IMG/VR virus record: IMGVR_UViG_3300038441_000167
Location: 1-20,120 of that record
Length of the DNA: 20,120 nt
From: a virus
Strand: one strand, 5' to 3'
Shown here: positions 15,811-20,016 of the stretch, piece after piece
Numbering within the stretch: the stretch's first letter is position 1
Layout of the letters: every line of letters begins with the position of its first letter
Made by a program: the position numbers and the translations under genes
Notes under the pieces: model-generated
The model's input: the letters and a program-made list of their open reading frames with translations, nothing else
Told to the model about the DNA's origin: nothing
Databases searched by the model: none

Positions 15811-16179
15811 TTAAGTTCGGTTGACAAGCCAGTCCAAATCGAAACTGGTTCGGTACAGCTTGGTTTCTTCGTCACGCATGTTACCCCGATAGCCAGTAAT
15901 GTAGCAATCGGTCTCCACAGCGTAGCGTATAGCTTTCGCCGCGTCGGTACTGGATTTGGTCGTTAGTCCGTATACGTCCACTTGGAGGCTTGAGCGATCA
16001 GCGTCCGGGCGGCAGTTCAGCATGTTGAACGGGTCGCCGCCGATCCACTGATAGACAGCGTAGGGCTTAGCTACGTCTTGTGGCGCTTGGCCGAACGGAT
16101 AAATGCGCGGTTCCGGGCCTCCGAGCAACGCTTGCACGGTCGGGTCGGCTTTGCACACGATGTAGAAAGGTACGTCCAT
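15811..16179 (-). CDS. DUF3168-type tail terminator / completion protein
   Basis: The 122-residue product opens with PFYIVCKADPTVQALLG and has YAVYQWIGGDPFNMLNC, then LQVDVYGLTTKSSTDAAKAIRYAVE. It ends with DEETKLYRTSFDLDWLVNR. These are recognisable elements of DUF3168 proteins, which in phages sit at the end of the tail tube and interact with the neck. It precedes the tail tube gene, the expected place. The start overlaps the HNH gene stop as TAATG, and GAGG lies shortly upstream inside the HNH gene. The HNH gene therefore abuts this gene exactly, and coupling to the tail operon is kept. Confidence 0.87.
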   Translation of the reverse strand: MDVPFYIVCKADPTVQALLGGPEPRIYPFGQAPQDVAKPYAVYQWIGGDPFNMLNCRPDADRSSLQVDVYGLTTKSSTDAAKAIRYAVETDCYITGYRGNMRDEETKLYRTSFDLDWLVNRT

Positions 16180-16958
16180 TATGCTGCCTCTTCGGGCATA
16201 CGAGCGCCCTTAGCGAAATTATCAGCGGCCCACAGGGGCTGTAGGTTAGTGTAATGGAAAAGAGCTTTTAGGTCCTCCGGGGTCTTGGCGGAGCTAAGCG
16301 GGGTTTTATGGTCAATGTGCCATAGCTCTCGGTTATGCCAGCCCATCCCCTCAGTAAAAAGACTCTCCAAGTGAGTCTTAAGCTCCGAAAAAGAACATCC
16401 TATAAGTTCGTAGGTCTTCGCAGGCTTGCCGAACCCGCTCTTGTTAAAGAAAACTCCGAGTCGCCCGCGCATACGACTGGCTACCAAGAATACCGGGTCT
16501 TCAGCTTTCCGCCGTTTAGCGTAGGCGTTCTGGTAAGCGTTGCGTGCCTCTCGCGTTCTGTTGAAATACTCTTTCTGCCGAACGTTATTGCGCGCCCGAT
16601 TAGCCTCTCTGTAGGCTCTCTGATACGCCGCTATGGACTCTTTATTCTTAGCGGTGTTGGCTTTCACCTTGGCCAGGTGGGTTTCGCGGTTCTCTAGGTA
16701 CCTAGCCGCCTTCTTGGCTTTTATCTCATCCGCGTTTTCTGTCCGGTATACCTTAAGCTTTTCTCGGATCTCGTCCCTGTTTTTAGCGACGTACGCTTTC
16801 CTACTGGATACAACTTTATCCGGATTCGCCTGTCGCCAGTTTTTATTCGCCAGCCTAAGGCATACCTTGCAGTAGTGAGTCAATCCATCCGCGGCTTTCG
16901 CCCGTCGGTTGAACTCCCCTAGTCCTTTGATTTCCTTGCACTTAGTGCATTTTTTCAA
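16179..16958 (-). CDS. Free-standing HNH endonuclease (putative homing endonuclease)
   Basis: The 259-residue protein has an N-terminal zinc-binding pair (C4-x2-C7 and a second CKVC at about residues 30-33), a long basic middle (about 45-155) with repeated N/Y/K/R-rich units, and a C-terminal HNH-type module. That module reads LWHIDHKTPLSSAKTPEDLKAL, then HYTNLQPLWAADNFAKGA, where the HxDH and NLQPLW-N-K elements make up the beta-beta-alpha metal core. Such genes cut DNA at intron-less target sites and spread themselves. It separates two genes that are normally neighbours (HK97gp10-like and DUF3168) and is AT-richer than its surroundings, both signs of insertion. It starts with TTG, eight bases after GGAGGG. 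The TTG has a better site than the first internal Met codons. Confidence 0.9.
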   Translation of the reverse strand: MKKCTKCKEIKGLGEFNRRAKAADGLTHYCKVCLRLANKNWRQANPDKVVSSRKAYVAKNRDEIREKLKVYRTENADEIKAKKAARYLENRETHLAKVKANTAKNKESIAAYQRAYREANRARNNVRQKEYFNRTREARNAYQNAYAKRRKAEDPVFLVASRMRGRLGVFFNKSGFGKPAKTYELIGCSFSELKTHLESLFTEGMGWHNRELWHIDHKTPLSSAKTPEDLKALFHYTNLQPLWAADNFAKGARMPEEAA

Positions 16959-17644: not shown

Positions 17645-18259
17645 CTAGCCCGCAACCCGCTTAAACGCAAACGACATGATGCCTTCGCGGCCAAGGTCGC
17701 TCTCTACGCGGTTCATCTCAACGCATTCGAAGCCTTGCTCGGCGCACCAGTTGATGAAGCCTGTGGACGAGAAATACCAGAGGTGTTCGCCCGGCTTGTA
17801 GTGCTTCGAGCTAAGCACATCGTCGGCGTCTTCGAAGACTGGGAGCGACACGAACAGCCATTCGCGAACTTGGGCTAGCAGAGCGCGGGGGTCTGGGATG
17901 TGCTCCAGGGAGTCCCAGCAAGTGATGAAGGGTACCGTGGTCTTGTAGGGGTCCAAGTAGTTCTGCCCGAGCCACTTCACCGCATCCCGGCATACGTCGT
18001 ACCCCCAACACCCGGTCTCATCTACATACCGGCCGCCCCCGATGCCGATGTCAACCCCGTAGCAAGCCCGGGCGTATTTCTCGACTAAGTCTTTTCGAGC
18101 GTTGGTCAGGAGCCGCGCCATGGGCGTCTCATCAAGCTTTCTGTAATGGGCGAAGTAATCGCCGCTGTAGAGCATGGCCGGACGGGAATGCCAGCCGTAA
18201 CCCTTTTCAGGACTCCAGAGGAGGCAGTCCGTCAAACCAACTGGCAAGCTTTGCGTCAT
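17645..18259 (-). CDS. Class I SAM-dependent methyltransferase
   Basis: The 204-residue protein carries motif I of SAM methyltransferases, GVDIGIGGGRYVD (about residues 68-80, with the D70-x-G-x-G-G-G stretch that binds SAM). An acidic residue at the end of strand 2 follows (GYDV, Asp88), then a Methyltransf_23-like CWDSLEHIPDP (about 114-124). Small-molecule, sugar-type methyltransferases have this build, and there are no DNA-methylase motifs (no NPPY or DPPY). The ATG overlaps the glycosyltransferase gene by 53 bases and is preceded by AAGGGGA. It probably methylates a product of its neighbours, such as a glycan on the virion or the cell surface; this is an inference. It is the last gene before the intrinsic terminator. 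Confidence 0.83.
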   Translation of the reverse strand: MTQSLPVGLTDCLLWSPEKGYGWHSRPAMLYSGDYFAHYRKLDETPMARLLTNARKDLVEKYARACYGVDIGIGGGRYVDETGCWGYDVCRDAVKWLGQNYLDPYKTTVPFITCWDSLEHIPDPRALLAQVREWLFVSLPVFEDADDVLSSKHYKPGEHLWYFSSTGFINWCAEQGFECVEMNRVESDLGREGIMSFAFKRVAG

Positions 18260-19043
18260 AATTCGAAATCCCCTTATCGCAGTTATGCTGTTTCAATTTA
18301 CACCTGCAGAACCGGTCTGGAACCGCAAAGGTAATGTTCGTTTGGCCTTTCGGCGTGATGAGTTCCGGCGCATTGTAACCGCCCTGGCCGCCGCATACGA
18401 TCCATGCAGGAACTTTAGCGCACAGAGCGGCCGGCACGAGCCAGCCGATACCGCCGATCACCGCTGCGGCGCCTTTGACCAGGGCCAGCAGCTGCTCGAC
18501 TGGCAGTTCGCCTTTCAGGTAGTAAACGTCCGCCGGTGGCGGATGCTCTCCGACTAGCCATTCTTGGCCGTCCTGCAAATCAGCTACAACGACGACTTTA
18601 TACCCACGATCCATAGCTGCTATTGCAGCTAAAGCTATGTACGACGGCAGTGGATTCCGTGTATCCGCCCGCCACTCGCTACGCACGGTAACTGGGCGTA
18701 CCACGACGTAGCGGCCGTCTACTGGCGAAGGTGGAAGCCGGGGTAGGTCAAACTCGGCCGGTGCCACGCCGAAGCACGCAGTCATGCCCGGGATAATGCC
18801 TTCGGCGCCGTAACGAATTTGTCTGGTAGGTTGTCGGCCAGGGGGCAAAATCCAGTTCGTGTGCCGGGCGATGTTCTTTGCCTGAGTGCGCAGCGTGGTT
18901 TGCGGGCGGATGAAGTGGACGCCGGGGATATCTTGGTAAATTTCCGGCCAGGGGGTATCGAGGTAAACGGGTTTCGGCAGCGCTTTGACGAAGGCGCGTT
19001 GATAGCAGTTATCTCCGAGACCTTTCATAGAATGAATAATCAT
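18207..19043 (-). CDS. Glycosyltransferase, family 9 (heptosyltransferase-like)
   Basis: This 278-residue protein has the layout of family-9 GT-B glycosyltransferases. The N-terminus, MIIHSMKGLGDNCYQRAFVKAL, contains the G-x-G-D turn followed by a helix. The C-terminal half has AAVIGGIGWLVPAALCAKVPAWIVCGG, matching the nucleotide-sugar binding part of ADP-heptose transferases. A cysteine-rich C-terminus (FCRCKLKQHNCDKG) is an additional feature, possibly metal binding. Sugar donor and acceptor are unknown. The ATG has GGAG five bases upstream, and an intrinsic terminator hairpin precedes it by about 20 bases. Together with the next methyltransferase and the MptE-like gene it suggests a sugar-modification module carried by the phage. 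Confidence 0.78.
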   Translation of the reverse strand: MIIHSMKGLGDNCYQRAFVKALPKPVYLDTPWPEIYQDIPGVHFIRPQTTLRTQAKNIARHTNWILPPGRQPTRQIRYGAEGIIPGMTACFGVAPAEFDLPRLPPSPVDGRYVVVRPVTVRSEWRADTRNPLPSYIALAAIAAMDRGYKVVVVADLQDGQEWLVGEHPPPADVYYLKGELPVEQLLALVKGAAAVIGGIGWLVPAALCAKVPAWIVCGGQGGYNAPELITPKGQTNITFAVPDRFCRCKLKQHNCDKGISNYDAKLASWFDGLPPLES

Positions 19044-19063
19044 AAGGCTCCGGGCAAAAAGAA

Positions 19064-19079
19064 CCCGCCATAAGGCGGG
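19064..19079 (-). terminator. Intrinsic terminator between the tRNA-like gene and the glycosyltransferase
   Basis: A six-base perfect stem (CCCGCC at 19064-19069, GGCGGG at 19074-19079) with loop ATAA, read on the - strand as GCCCGCC TTAT GGCGGG, is followed by TTCTTTTTG. This is a good intrinsic terminator for transcripts coming from the tRNA-like gene. Only about 20 bases separate it from the glycosyltransferase start, leaving no room for a normal promoter, so it may be partly read through or act as an attenuator. Confidence 0.8.
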
Positions 19080-19107
19080 CGCAAGTGAGGGTCTGACGGA
19101 GTTTAAA

Positions 19108-19205
19108 GGCGCAATTGTGAGGGAGTTGAACCCCCGACCTCGCAGGACGTATTCCGCTGTAAGTACAGCAACCCGCGCGCTCTAACCAACTGAGCTACCA
19201 ATTGC
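19108..19205 (-). tRNA. tRNA-like gene with a 27-base anticodon loop (anticodon not assignable)
   Basis: Read on the - strand from 19205, the parts are: acceptor GCAATTGG; TA; D stem GCTC with loop AGTTGGTTA and GAGC; anticodon stem CGCGG (19177-19173) pairing with CTGCG (19145-19141, one G-U); variable loop AGGTC; T stem GGGGG with loop TTCAACT and CCCTC; and acceptor 3' strand ACAATTGC. The D, variable and T parts are canonical. Two things are odd. Between the two anticodon-stem strands there are 27 bases rather than 7, with a nested GCTGT-ACTT-ACAGC hairpin, so no anticodon can be read with confidence. The acceptor has G-1 opposite C73, as in tRNA-His, but position 7-66 is a G-A mismatch and the 3' end reads GCC-T, not CCA. 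A long-variable-arm (Ser/Leu/Tyr) fold fits worse. It is probably a degenerate or unusual tRNA. Confidence 0.6.
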
Positions 19206-19300
19206 ACCACAGGATCTATCTACGCAACCCGATGCGCTAACCCCGGATACCACACGCTTTCGTAAAAGAATTCGATGCGCGGATAGATCCTGTGGTGCAA
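19202..19300. repeat. Perfect 19-bp inverted repeat around a 61-base spacer
   Basis: TTGCACCACAGGATCTATC (19202-19220) is repeated exactly as its reverse complement at 19282-19300. The left arm includes the last four bases matching the start of the tRNA-like gene (19202-19205), so pairing of the arms in a - strand transcript would compete with the tRNA acceptor stem. The upstream arm reads TTGCACCA on the - strand, resembling a tRNA 3' CCA end. No obvious target-site duplication flanks it. A copy of GATGCGC occurs near both ends inside the spacer. Origin could be a tRNA-fragment duplication and inversion or a miniature inverted-repeat element. Confidence 0.85.
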
Positions 19301-19458
19301 CTCCCGCATCTGCGGGCACTTGGCGTTGGTTGAATTCGGGCAGAAGGTGTAGGGTTCCAGCCTACACACCGAGAGAGCTAACCTCAGCAGGGCACCTAAG
19401 TGCGCTCAGTAAAACGCCTGTGTGGGTCATTTCCCCACCGCTTCTGCTGAAACGAACT
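19301..19458 (-). other. Non-coding stretch with several hairpins, possible structured RNA
   Basis: No convincing coding frame covers this stretch between the MptE-like gene and the inverted repeat. Hairpins seen (top-strand positions): CCCGC 19303-19307 with GCGGG 19312-19316; GTGTAGG 19347-19353 with CCTACAC 19361-19367, loop of seven; TCAGCAG 19384-19390 with CTGCTGA 19444-19450 enclosing two more hairpins; and GTGGG 19422-19426 with CCCAC 19434-19438. The stem at 19396-19400/19405-19409 is complete with a G-U pair only on the - strand transcript. The - strand version of the GTGTAGG hairpin has a tRNA-Ser(GGA)-like loop (CTGGAAC), but no acceptor or T arm fits. A structured leader or remnants of tRNAs are possible. 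Confidence 0.4.
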
Positions 19459-20016
19459 CTAGCCGCGTGAATCACAAGTGTCAACAACCTTTTGCAATTC
19501 TTTTTCCAACAACCCTAACGCATAGCATTCCAACGACGTGGCGCGACTGCAGTTCACGACCTGAGCCCGTTGCGGTAACCTAGCGTGCTGCCTCACCCAT
19601 TCGCGGCAGCGCGAGGCGTCGGGGTTCTTCGTGTCTTGGTGATCGCCGTGCCAGTGGGTACCTGCCTCAACGTTGCAGTCATACCCGAGCAGGAGAACGC
19701 GCTCCGCGCCCAAGTCGAACGCTAACTCTATCGCGCGCAAACCGGAGTTATAACCCCCATATTTGGTATGAAGGTTGAGGCCATACTTCGCCGACGCCTG
19801 CCGGGTACACGTCCAGCGTTTCGGACCTTCTGGGACCGACGAATGGTTGGCGCCCCACCACGCGAGATCTCCCGCGTAAAGGTGATCGCACCACGGGGCG
19901 AGCTGCCAGGAGTTGTTAACGGCGATGGTTGGTAAGCCTGACGCGCGGACCAGTTCGCAGTCTTGCGCGGTCAGGCTTGGGCCGGAAGCGATGCAGACGA
20001 AGGTTTTACTGCCCAT
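19459..20016 (-). CDS. MptE/DUF115-like Rossmann-fold protein
   Basis: The 185-residue protein begins KTFVCIASGPSLTAQDCELV, where the ASGPSL loop (residues 10-15) is the hallmark of the DUF115/MptE-like group. Further matches are TIAVNNSW, CDHLYAGDLAWW, an AIELAFDLGAERVLLLGYDCN strand-turn-strand, and a THWHGDHQ segment with likely active-site histidines. Members include archaeal 6-hydroxymethylpterin diphosphokinase and bacterial flagellin-modifying (Maf-type) transferases. Phage versions often sit beside sugar-related genes. Here it precedes a glycosyltransferase and a methyltransferase, so a transferase role in sugar or nucleotide-linked modification is likely, but the substrate is unknown. 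Its start overlaps the tail of the upstream gene by 11 bases. Confidence 0.78.
   Translation of the reverse strand: MGSKTFVCIASGPSLTAQDCELVRASGLPTIAVNNSWQLAPWCDHLYAGDLAWWGANHSSVPEGPKRWTCTRQASAKYGLNLHTKYGGYNSGLRAIELAFDLGAERVLLLGYDCNVEAGTHWHGDHQDTKNPDASRCREWVRQHARLPQRAQVVNCSRATSLECYALGLLEKELQKVVDTCDSRG

Follow-up and report, generated by a model that had tools for sequence, protein, structure and literature searches.

How is a tRNA-like element to be understood when it has the arms of a tRNA and an anticodon loop that is far too long? Such an element lies between two genes on the minus strand of a viral DNA of 20,120 nucleotides (IMG/VR record IMGVR_UViG_3300038441_000167, positions 1 to 20,120), referred to here as the window. 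A sequence-only reading had offered three possibilities, namely a degenerate tRNA, a tRNA with a small removable insert, or a decoy for the anticodon-loop nucleases of phage defence. The view that is well supported by the comparisons below is that the tRNA-like element occupies, as a plug-in, one of the sockets of a non-coding RNA that is modular and hypervariable. Equally well supported is the view that related phages retain the promoter, sockets, and terminator of this RNA and swap its modules, which include tRNAs, tRNA-like elements, pseudoknots, hammerheads, and unnamed folds. The interval from promoter to terminator, termed the array, is laid out with its neighbours as follows (window coordinates).

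19459..20016, minus strand: upstream gene, 185 aa, MptE/sialyltransferase-like (phrog_4603)
19456..19484, minus strand: sigma-70-type promoter, TTGACA-N17-TAGAGT (10/12 matches), overlapping the upstream gene at its end
19340..19447, minus strand: module 1, a four-arm junction RNA (folded) with a 7-bp closing stem, GCAGAAG/CTTCTGC
19302..19333, minus strand: linker CAACCAACGCC and hairpin GCCCGCAGATGCGGG, recurring after tRNAs or modules in Pseudomonas phages
19294..19300, minus strand: socket arm 1, TTGCACC, which starts the 5' strand of a helix of about 20 bp with arm 2
19209..19293, minus strand: socket 2 module, enclosed by the arm1:arm2 helix
19199..19208, minus strand: socket arm 2, GGTGCAATTG, with arm 1 or arm 3 as alternative partners
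19118..19198, minus strand: non-decoding tRNA-like body in socket 3 (D arm, anticodon stem, 27-nt loop, T arm)
19154..19171, minus strand: hairpin within the anticodon loop, TTGCTGT-ACTT-ACAGCGG, from folding (counterpart in locus L010, CGCTGT-TTTT-ACAGCG)
19108..19117, minus strand: socket arm 3, CAATTGCGCC
19063..19080, minus strand: intrinsic terminator GCCCGCC-TTAT-GGCGGGT, then TCTTTTT, at the same location in related arrays
18207..19043, minus strand: downstream gene, 278 aa, phrog_6804, with a glycosyltransferase family 9-like annotation in relatives

Anatomy and relatives of the tRNA-like element

ARAGORN reports 19108-19205 on the minus strand as 'tRNA-???', and cmscan against Rfam matches the tRNA model (RF00005) with a score of 38.8 bits, the cut-off being 29 (window E value 3.8e-5). 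On that strand the element has a D stem (GCTC/GAGC), an anticodon stem of 5 bp (CGCGG 19177-19173 with CTGCG 19145-19141), a 5-nt variable loop (AGGTC), and a T arm (GGGGG-TTCAACT-CCCTC, 19135-19119), and the core bases are all there (T8, A14, G15-C48, G18G19, T54T55C56, and A58). The arms described by the sequence-only reading are thus borne out by ARAGORN, Rfam, and folding alike, as is the 20-nt excess with its nested GCTGT/ACAGC hairpin in the anticodon loop (27 nt at 19172-19146, minus strand, against 7 expected), which recurs in L010. In the predicted fold, the hairpin is stacked above the anticodon stem with a one-sided unpaired bulge of 7-8 nt on the 3' side.

The acceptor end is of a different nature. 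The G-1:C73 pair that had hinted at a histidine tRNA is present, but it is not a lone extra pair, for the acceptor-side helix has 10 pairs (GGTGCAATTG 19208-19199 with CAATTGCGCC 19117-19108, minus strand), two of them past G-1, and is followed on its 3' side by TTTAAA with no CCA. The same 10-bp stem is also found with non-tRNA modules; the supposed acceptor stem is therefore the socket's own stem, the histidine clue is spurious, and tRNA-His was rejected on both counts. A canonical bacterial tRNA was rejected as well, since a score above the cut-off is accompanied by an abnormal loop, a helix of 10 bp against 7 bp, and no free CCA 3' end; a class II tRNA was rejected on the 5-nt variable loop. 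Neither ARAGORN nor Rfam finds a tmRNA in the window, and in the arrays no GOLLD, ROOL, or other Rfam phage RNA reaches the gathering score (Rfam 15), tRNAs alone being matched. The element is a tRNA-like structure without decoding capacity.

A search with the neighbouring 278-aa gene recovered 80 viral loci, among them L010, which comes from a separate metagenome and carries the same tRNA-like element at the same position (loop of 26 nt, hairpin included), and L044, in which a third copy is cut by the contig end to its 3' half. An assembly error is ruled out because the L010 homologue has the same insert. A homologue with a normal loop, which would have spoken against the sequence-only reading, was not found among related phages in this search, the nearest relative being L010 itself. 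Beyond these copies, a search with the 5' pattern gave L010 as its sole true match (L132-L135 being unrelated coding matches), and one with the 3' pattern gave L010 and the L044 contig and no others. Named phages, compared by DNA, hold no relative of the whole element, just a generic 26-nt tRNA-Met stretch; a search for a host tRNA origin gave as its sole match a generic 22-nt D-arm stretch in a Pseudomonas genome, and plasmids gave no match.

When 31 pairs are aligned across the window, L010, and the 3' half in L044, all 66 of 66 scored cells pair, as against 36-59% of cells in a control with the partner strand slid. The T-stem pair 52:62 is G-C, U-A, and A-U in the three phages, and columns that differ among the copies are only somewhat rarer where paired (8/62) than where unpaired (10/39). 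The covariation score is reached by 93/500 shuffles in this small sample, and covariation rests on few changes because the family is so thin (the window, L010, and the L044 3' fragment). A degenerate tRNA is disfavoured, as stems and tertiary-core bases are kept in divergent phages and the changes preserve pairing.

The intact anticodon stem and tRNA core would also suit a functional tRNA from which a short intron is removed, and ARAGORN does return an intron solution. The solutions conflict, however, giving Ser(GCT) for the window and Val(TAC) for L010; there is no bulge-helix-bulge, the size is far below that of a group I intron, CCA is absent, and the helix runs past position 73. An intron-containing tRNA was rejected on the discordant isotypes and the lack of either intron signature; an intron within the anticodon loop is unlikely, and the removable insert of a functional tRNA is hardly credible.

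The transcription unit and its sockets

About 36 contigs have the motif TTGTTGACACTTGTGA..TARAGTT conserved in front of their arrays. The promoter is kept in 30+ related phages, and bacterial genomes contain no match to the exact promoter pattern. In the window, the interval from promoter to terminator is predicted to yield a non-coding transcript of about 390 nt. It holds no convincing open reading frame, and a protein-coding explanation was rejected since only short GTG/TTG frames occur on either strand. Elsewhere in the window, among the head-tail genes, an ORF of 259 aa (16179-16958, minus strand) has an N-terminal CxxC pattern and an HNH-like C-terminal part; it resembles a free-standing homing endonuclease and has no Pfam match.

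Many arrays share a common plan in which the linker CAACCAACGCC, the hairpin CCCGCACATGCGG, and the arms TTGCACC, GGTGCAATTG, and CAATTGCACC form two nested sockets. The helix between arms 1 and 2 extends into sequence that is phage-specific yet complementary, with a mean of 7.4 bp for a phage's own ends and 1.8 bp when ends are swapped between phages. In two arrays with one or both sockets empty, each on the minus strand near a linker, the arms of socket 3 have collapsed into the palindrome GGTGCAATTGCACC (L141) or the sole remnant is GTTGCACCAAC (L138), which suggests that modules are inserted at the palindrome centre. A second scaffold, GATGCAGATG/CATCTGCATC, has the same three-arm plan in unrelated letters (L086, L089, and phage Touem01), and sockets are missing entirely in some phages.

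Upstream of the linker, module 1 has a D-arm-like hairpin (GTGGG/CCCAC) and a T-arm-like hairpin (GTGTAGG-CTGGAAC-CCTACAC). Its homologue in L047 shows a compensatory change (GCGTAGG/CCTACGC) and the T-arm-like loop TTAGAAC in place of CTGGAAC. The topology of this module, with a 7-bp closing stem, a 2-nt spacer, and D-arm-like and T-arm-like hairpins, is itself tRNA-like.

Arm 2 can pair with either neighbour, the two pairings being mutually exclusive. The energy model favours arm 1 (-164.4 versus -155.3 kcal/mol, tertiary contributions aside), a pairing that would separate the upper pairs of the tRNA-like stem. Because of this thermodynamic preference, the tRNA form may be one of two states of the RNA. 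The three arms might then act as a strand-exchange, riboswitch-like control of the glycosyltransferase-like gene, with the modules as sensors, an arrangement consistent with the recurrence of the three-arm design in the second scaffold and with the position of the terminator between array and downstream gene. Similar arrays, however, are found in other phages after genes that resemble RusA or terminase (names read from sequence context), so that the arrays are not tied to the glycosyltransferase-like gene; the socketless phages also speak against such control, which is distinctly improbable.

Arrays occur in or near the isolates Psp6, HU1, PfAn1, Touem01, and Medea1, where they are unannotated except for tRNAs. 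In D3-type relatives, whose version of the gene is about 60% identical, the 278-aa gene follows directly on its predecessor, leaving no room for an array, and the array is therefore a unit added in one branch. In bacterial genomes, the linker pattern finds mostly matches in unrelated taxa and one Pseudomonas region, L148 (chromosome of Pseudomonas sp. T1-3-2), a prophage-like stretch that has no array but has the linker CAACCAACGCCAAGTGCCCGCACATGCGG after a tRNA-Asn.

Module repertoire and exchange

T-arm motifs number 19 in 14 kb of arrays, all on the sense strand and 0 antisense, against 1 on flanking strands totalling 592 kb. Some of them lie in ordinary tRNAs (Trp CCA, Gln, Gly, and Ser), the sole array content that Rfam recognises, and others form the T arms of non-decoding tRNA-like elements. 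The tRNA-Trp(CCA) of L011, L020, L024, L025, and L032 keeps an acceptor mismatch at 4:69 (C-C or C-U) while neighbouring pairs covary. Among the tRNA-like elements, abnormal anticodon loops range from 3 to 27 nt. A second non-decoding type, in L024 and L108, has a 5-nt loop (CGAAA) and a covarying anticodon stem; less certain, being drawn by eye with single-sequence folding, are those of L006 (loop of about 18 nt), L119 (GAAA tetraloop and weaker T arm), and L028 (very small loop). The arrays of L017, L018, and L046 hold two T-arm-like hairpins inside a single closing stem, those of L017 being TCAGG-TGCGAGC-CCTGA and GAGGG-TTCGATA-CCCTC.

Other modules have no relation to tRNA. H-type pseudoknots with an A-rich third loop (e.g., GAGGACTCGGAGCCTCGATAAAAATTCCGAGG), in which both stems covary, occur at loci that include the array regions of L011, L014, L015, L018, L019, L020, L024, L047, L088, and L091; they are preQ1-like or antitoxin-like in shape only. 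A 170-nt module of Pseudomonas, Enterobacter, and Pectobacterium phages opens with a hammerhead ribozyme, followed by a conserved structured RNA of about 120 nt, and is placed as follows.

L058, 3521-3692, plus strand: hammerhead module
L018, 3607-3778, plus strand: hammerhead module
L092, 5051-5221, minus strand: hammerhead module
L154, 1477-1646, plus strand: hammerhead module
L155, 1500-1669, plus strand: hammerhead module

The core CUGANGA..GAAA..UH has 4 strict matches and 0 in reversed sequence, and across the module 98.4% of cells are paired, three stems covary, and 0/500 shuffles reach the covariation score. Judged by its core and covarying stems, the module in these five loci is a hammerhead ribozyme, with all copies below the Rfam cut-offs. 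In phage Pappous, it is overlapped by an annotated hypothetical protein.

The contents of the arrays turn over almost completely between close relatives. Over 528 phage pairs, median identity is 77% in the upstream coding sequence and 42% in the array interior, the latter being about the level that unrelated sequences would give in a forced global alignment; the window and L006, for example, are 88% identical in the upstream coding stretch and 38% in the array. Length from promoter to terminator varies from <200 to almost 700 nt. The contents of socket 2 fall into 15 types among 20 phages and those of socket 3 into 14 types among 19 phages, and no two of the 19 distinct phages in which both sockets could be assigned are alike in both. 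L010 has its socket 3 type in common with the window and its socket 2 type in common with L026. By these sequence types, the arrays are mosaics whose socket contents reassort independently of one another. The mean folding z is -1.55 for arrays (-3.41 for the window) and 0.12 for upstream coding sequence, with many array folds individually not unusually stable (z near 0).

Phage tRNA genes turn over, and an accumulation of functionless, decaying tRNA genes and other RNAs between two genes would produce part of this picture, particularly as several tRNA-like elements resemble broken tRNAs and normal tRNAs (Trp CCA, Gly, Gln, and Ser) occupy the same intervals. Such debris would not be expected to keep a strong promoter and a terminator, to change in ways that preserve pairing in tRNA-like elements, pseudoknots, and socket stems, or to carry all its T arms on the sense strand. 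The same modules also turn up elsewhere in genomes and in phages that infect other hosts. Decay is thus improbable as an account of the arrays.

Proposed role and known parallels

The best overall explanation, to which we assign about an even chance, is a modular RNA in which the tRNA-like element is a non-decoding scaffold or mimic directed against host factors. The array RNA would be transcribed during infection and would fold into a set of stable domains. The tRNA-like element would be a tRNA-shaped scaffold or mimic, resistant to nucleases, with its hairpin displayed at the position of the anticodon loop. Its target, to be bound or saturated, would be an RNA-binding factor of the host, and defence or toxin proteins that act on RNA, one or several, are the likeliest candidates. 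Module swapping would then be the mark of an arms race. An RNA-based counter-defence repertoire is the leading guess, drawn by analogy; it is favoured because of the rapid turnover and because phage RNA is known to mimic defence RNA (PMC3475682), its basis being these two points rather than a linked defence. Of the earlier suggestion of a decoy, the general form is possible. The anticodon-nuclease form is the weakest, because the loop that such a nuclease would target is precisely what has been replaced; a better fit is mimicry of the elbow or acceptor of tRNA, or a scaffold that displays the hairpin.

The tRNA-like element and the other modules might instead merely protect the transcript or steer its processing. 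A helix of about 20 bp is a suitable substrate for RNase III, as the arm1:arm2 helix would be, and the hammerhead modules are self-cleaving motifs. The anatomy also matches that of an engineered tRNA scaffold, which keeps the acceptor, D, and T arms, carries another hairpin in place of the anticodon loop, and shields the RNA by its tRNA fold (PMC3753655). The natural element differs in lying inside a longer helix and a multi-module transcript. A plain stabiliser would give no reason for unrelated folds to replace one another in almost every phage, and a purely protective or processing role is rather unlikely.

Several known systems share features with the non-decoding scaffold or mimic proposed here. 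Phage tRNA gene clusters likewise place multiple tRNAs or tRNA-like elements in one intergenic unit, whereas the arrays consist mostly of non-tRNA modules, include anticodon-less tRNA-like elements and nested sockets, and show near-complete turnover among close relatives. The pseudo-ToxI of phage phiTE is a structured, non-coding phage RNA that counters a host system by mimicking defence RNA and evolves by expansion and recombination (PMC3475682); it consists of repeats of one antitoxin mimic, in contrast to many unrelated, swapped folds, and the likeness is by analogy. The tRNA-like domain of tmRNA is also non-decoding, but the window element has its D arm and anticodon stem in full and lacks both a tag reading frame and a CCA end. 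GOLLD and ROOL are structured phage RNAs of obscure role, some near tRNAs, yet each is a single conserved fold, unlike the swapped modules. Phage hammerhead ribozymes (PMC3088659) have the consensus core seen in the five array or phage loci, where it is used as one module ahead of its conserved companion RNA.

The kinds of component are thus already known (tRNA, hammerhead, pseudoknot, and phage RNA mimic). No description of a socketed rack that takes interchangeable RNA folds was found in the open-access papers searched or in Rfam, although one may exist elsewhere, and the locus type seems undescribed. It is proposed tentatively, at somewhat less than even probability, that the arrays represent a new class of locus in phages that infect Pseudomonas and other Proteobacteria. 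This would be a nested-socket RNA 'rack', running from promoter to terminator, in which unrelated RNA folds (non-decoding tRNA-like elements, pseudoknots, and ribozymes) are exchanged; it would form an RNA-only counter-defence repertoire and evolve in an antigen-like manner.

Hypervariable protein loci are well known in phages, but no precedent was found for a hypervariable locus of interchangeable RNA folds. Here, tRNA bodies would serve as natural scaffolds without decoding, and non-decoding modules of this kind explain odd phage 'tRNAs' with impossible anticodon loops in the output of tRNA finders. If the modules bind host proteins, the arrays would offer natural RNA inhibitors in the form of an existing library and would point to RNA-targeting defences that await discovery.
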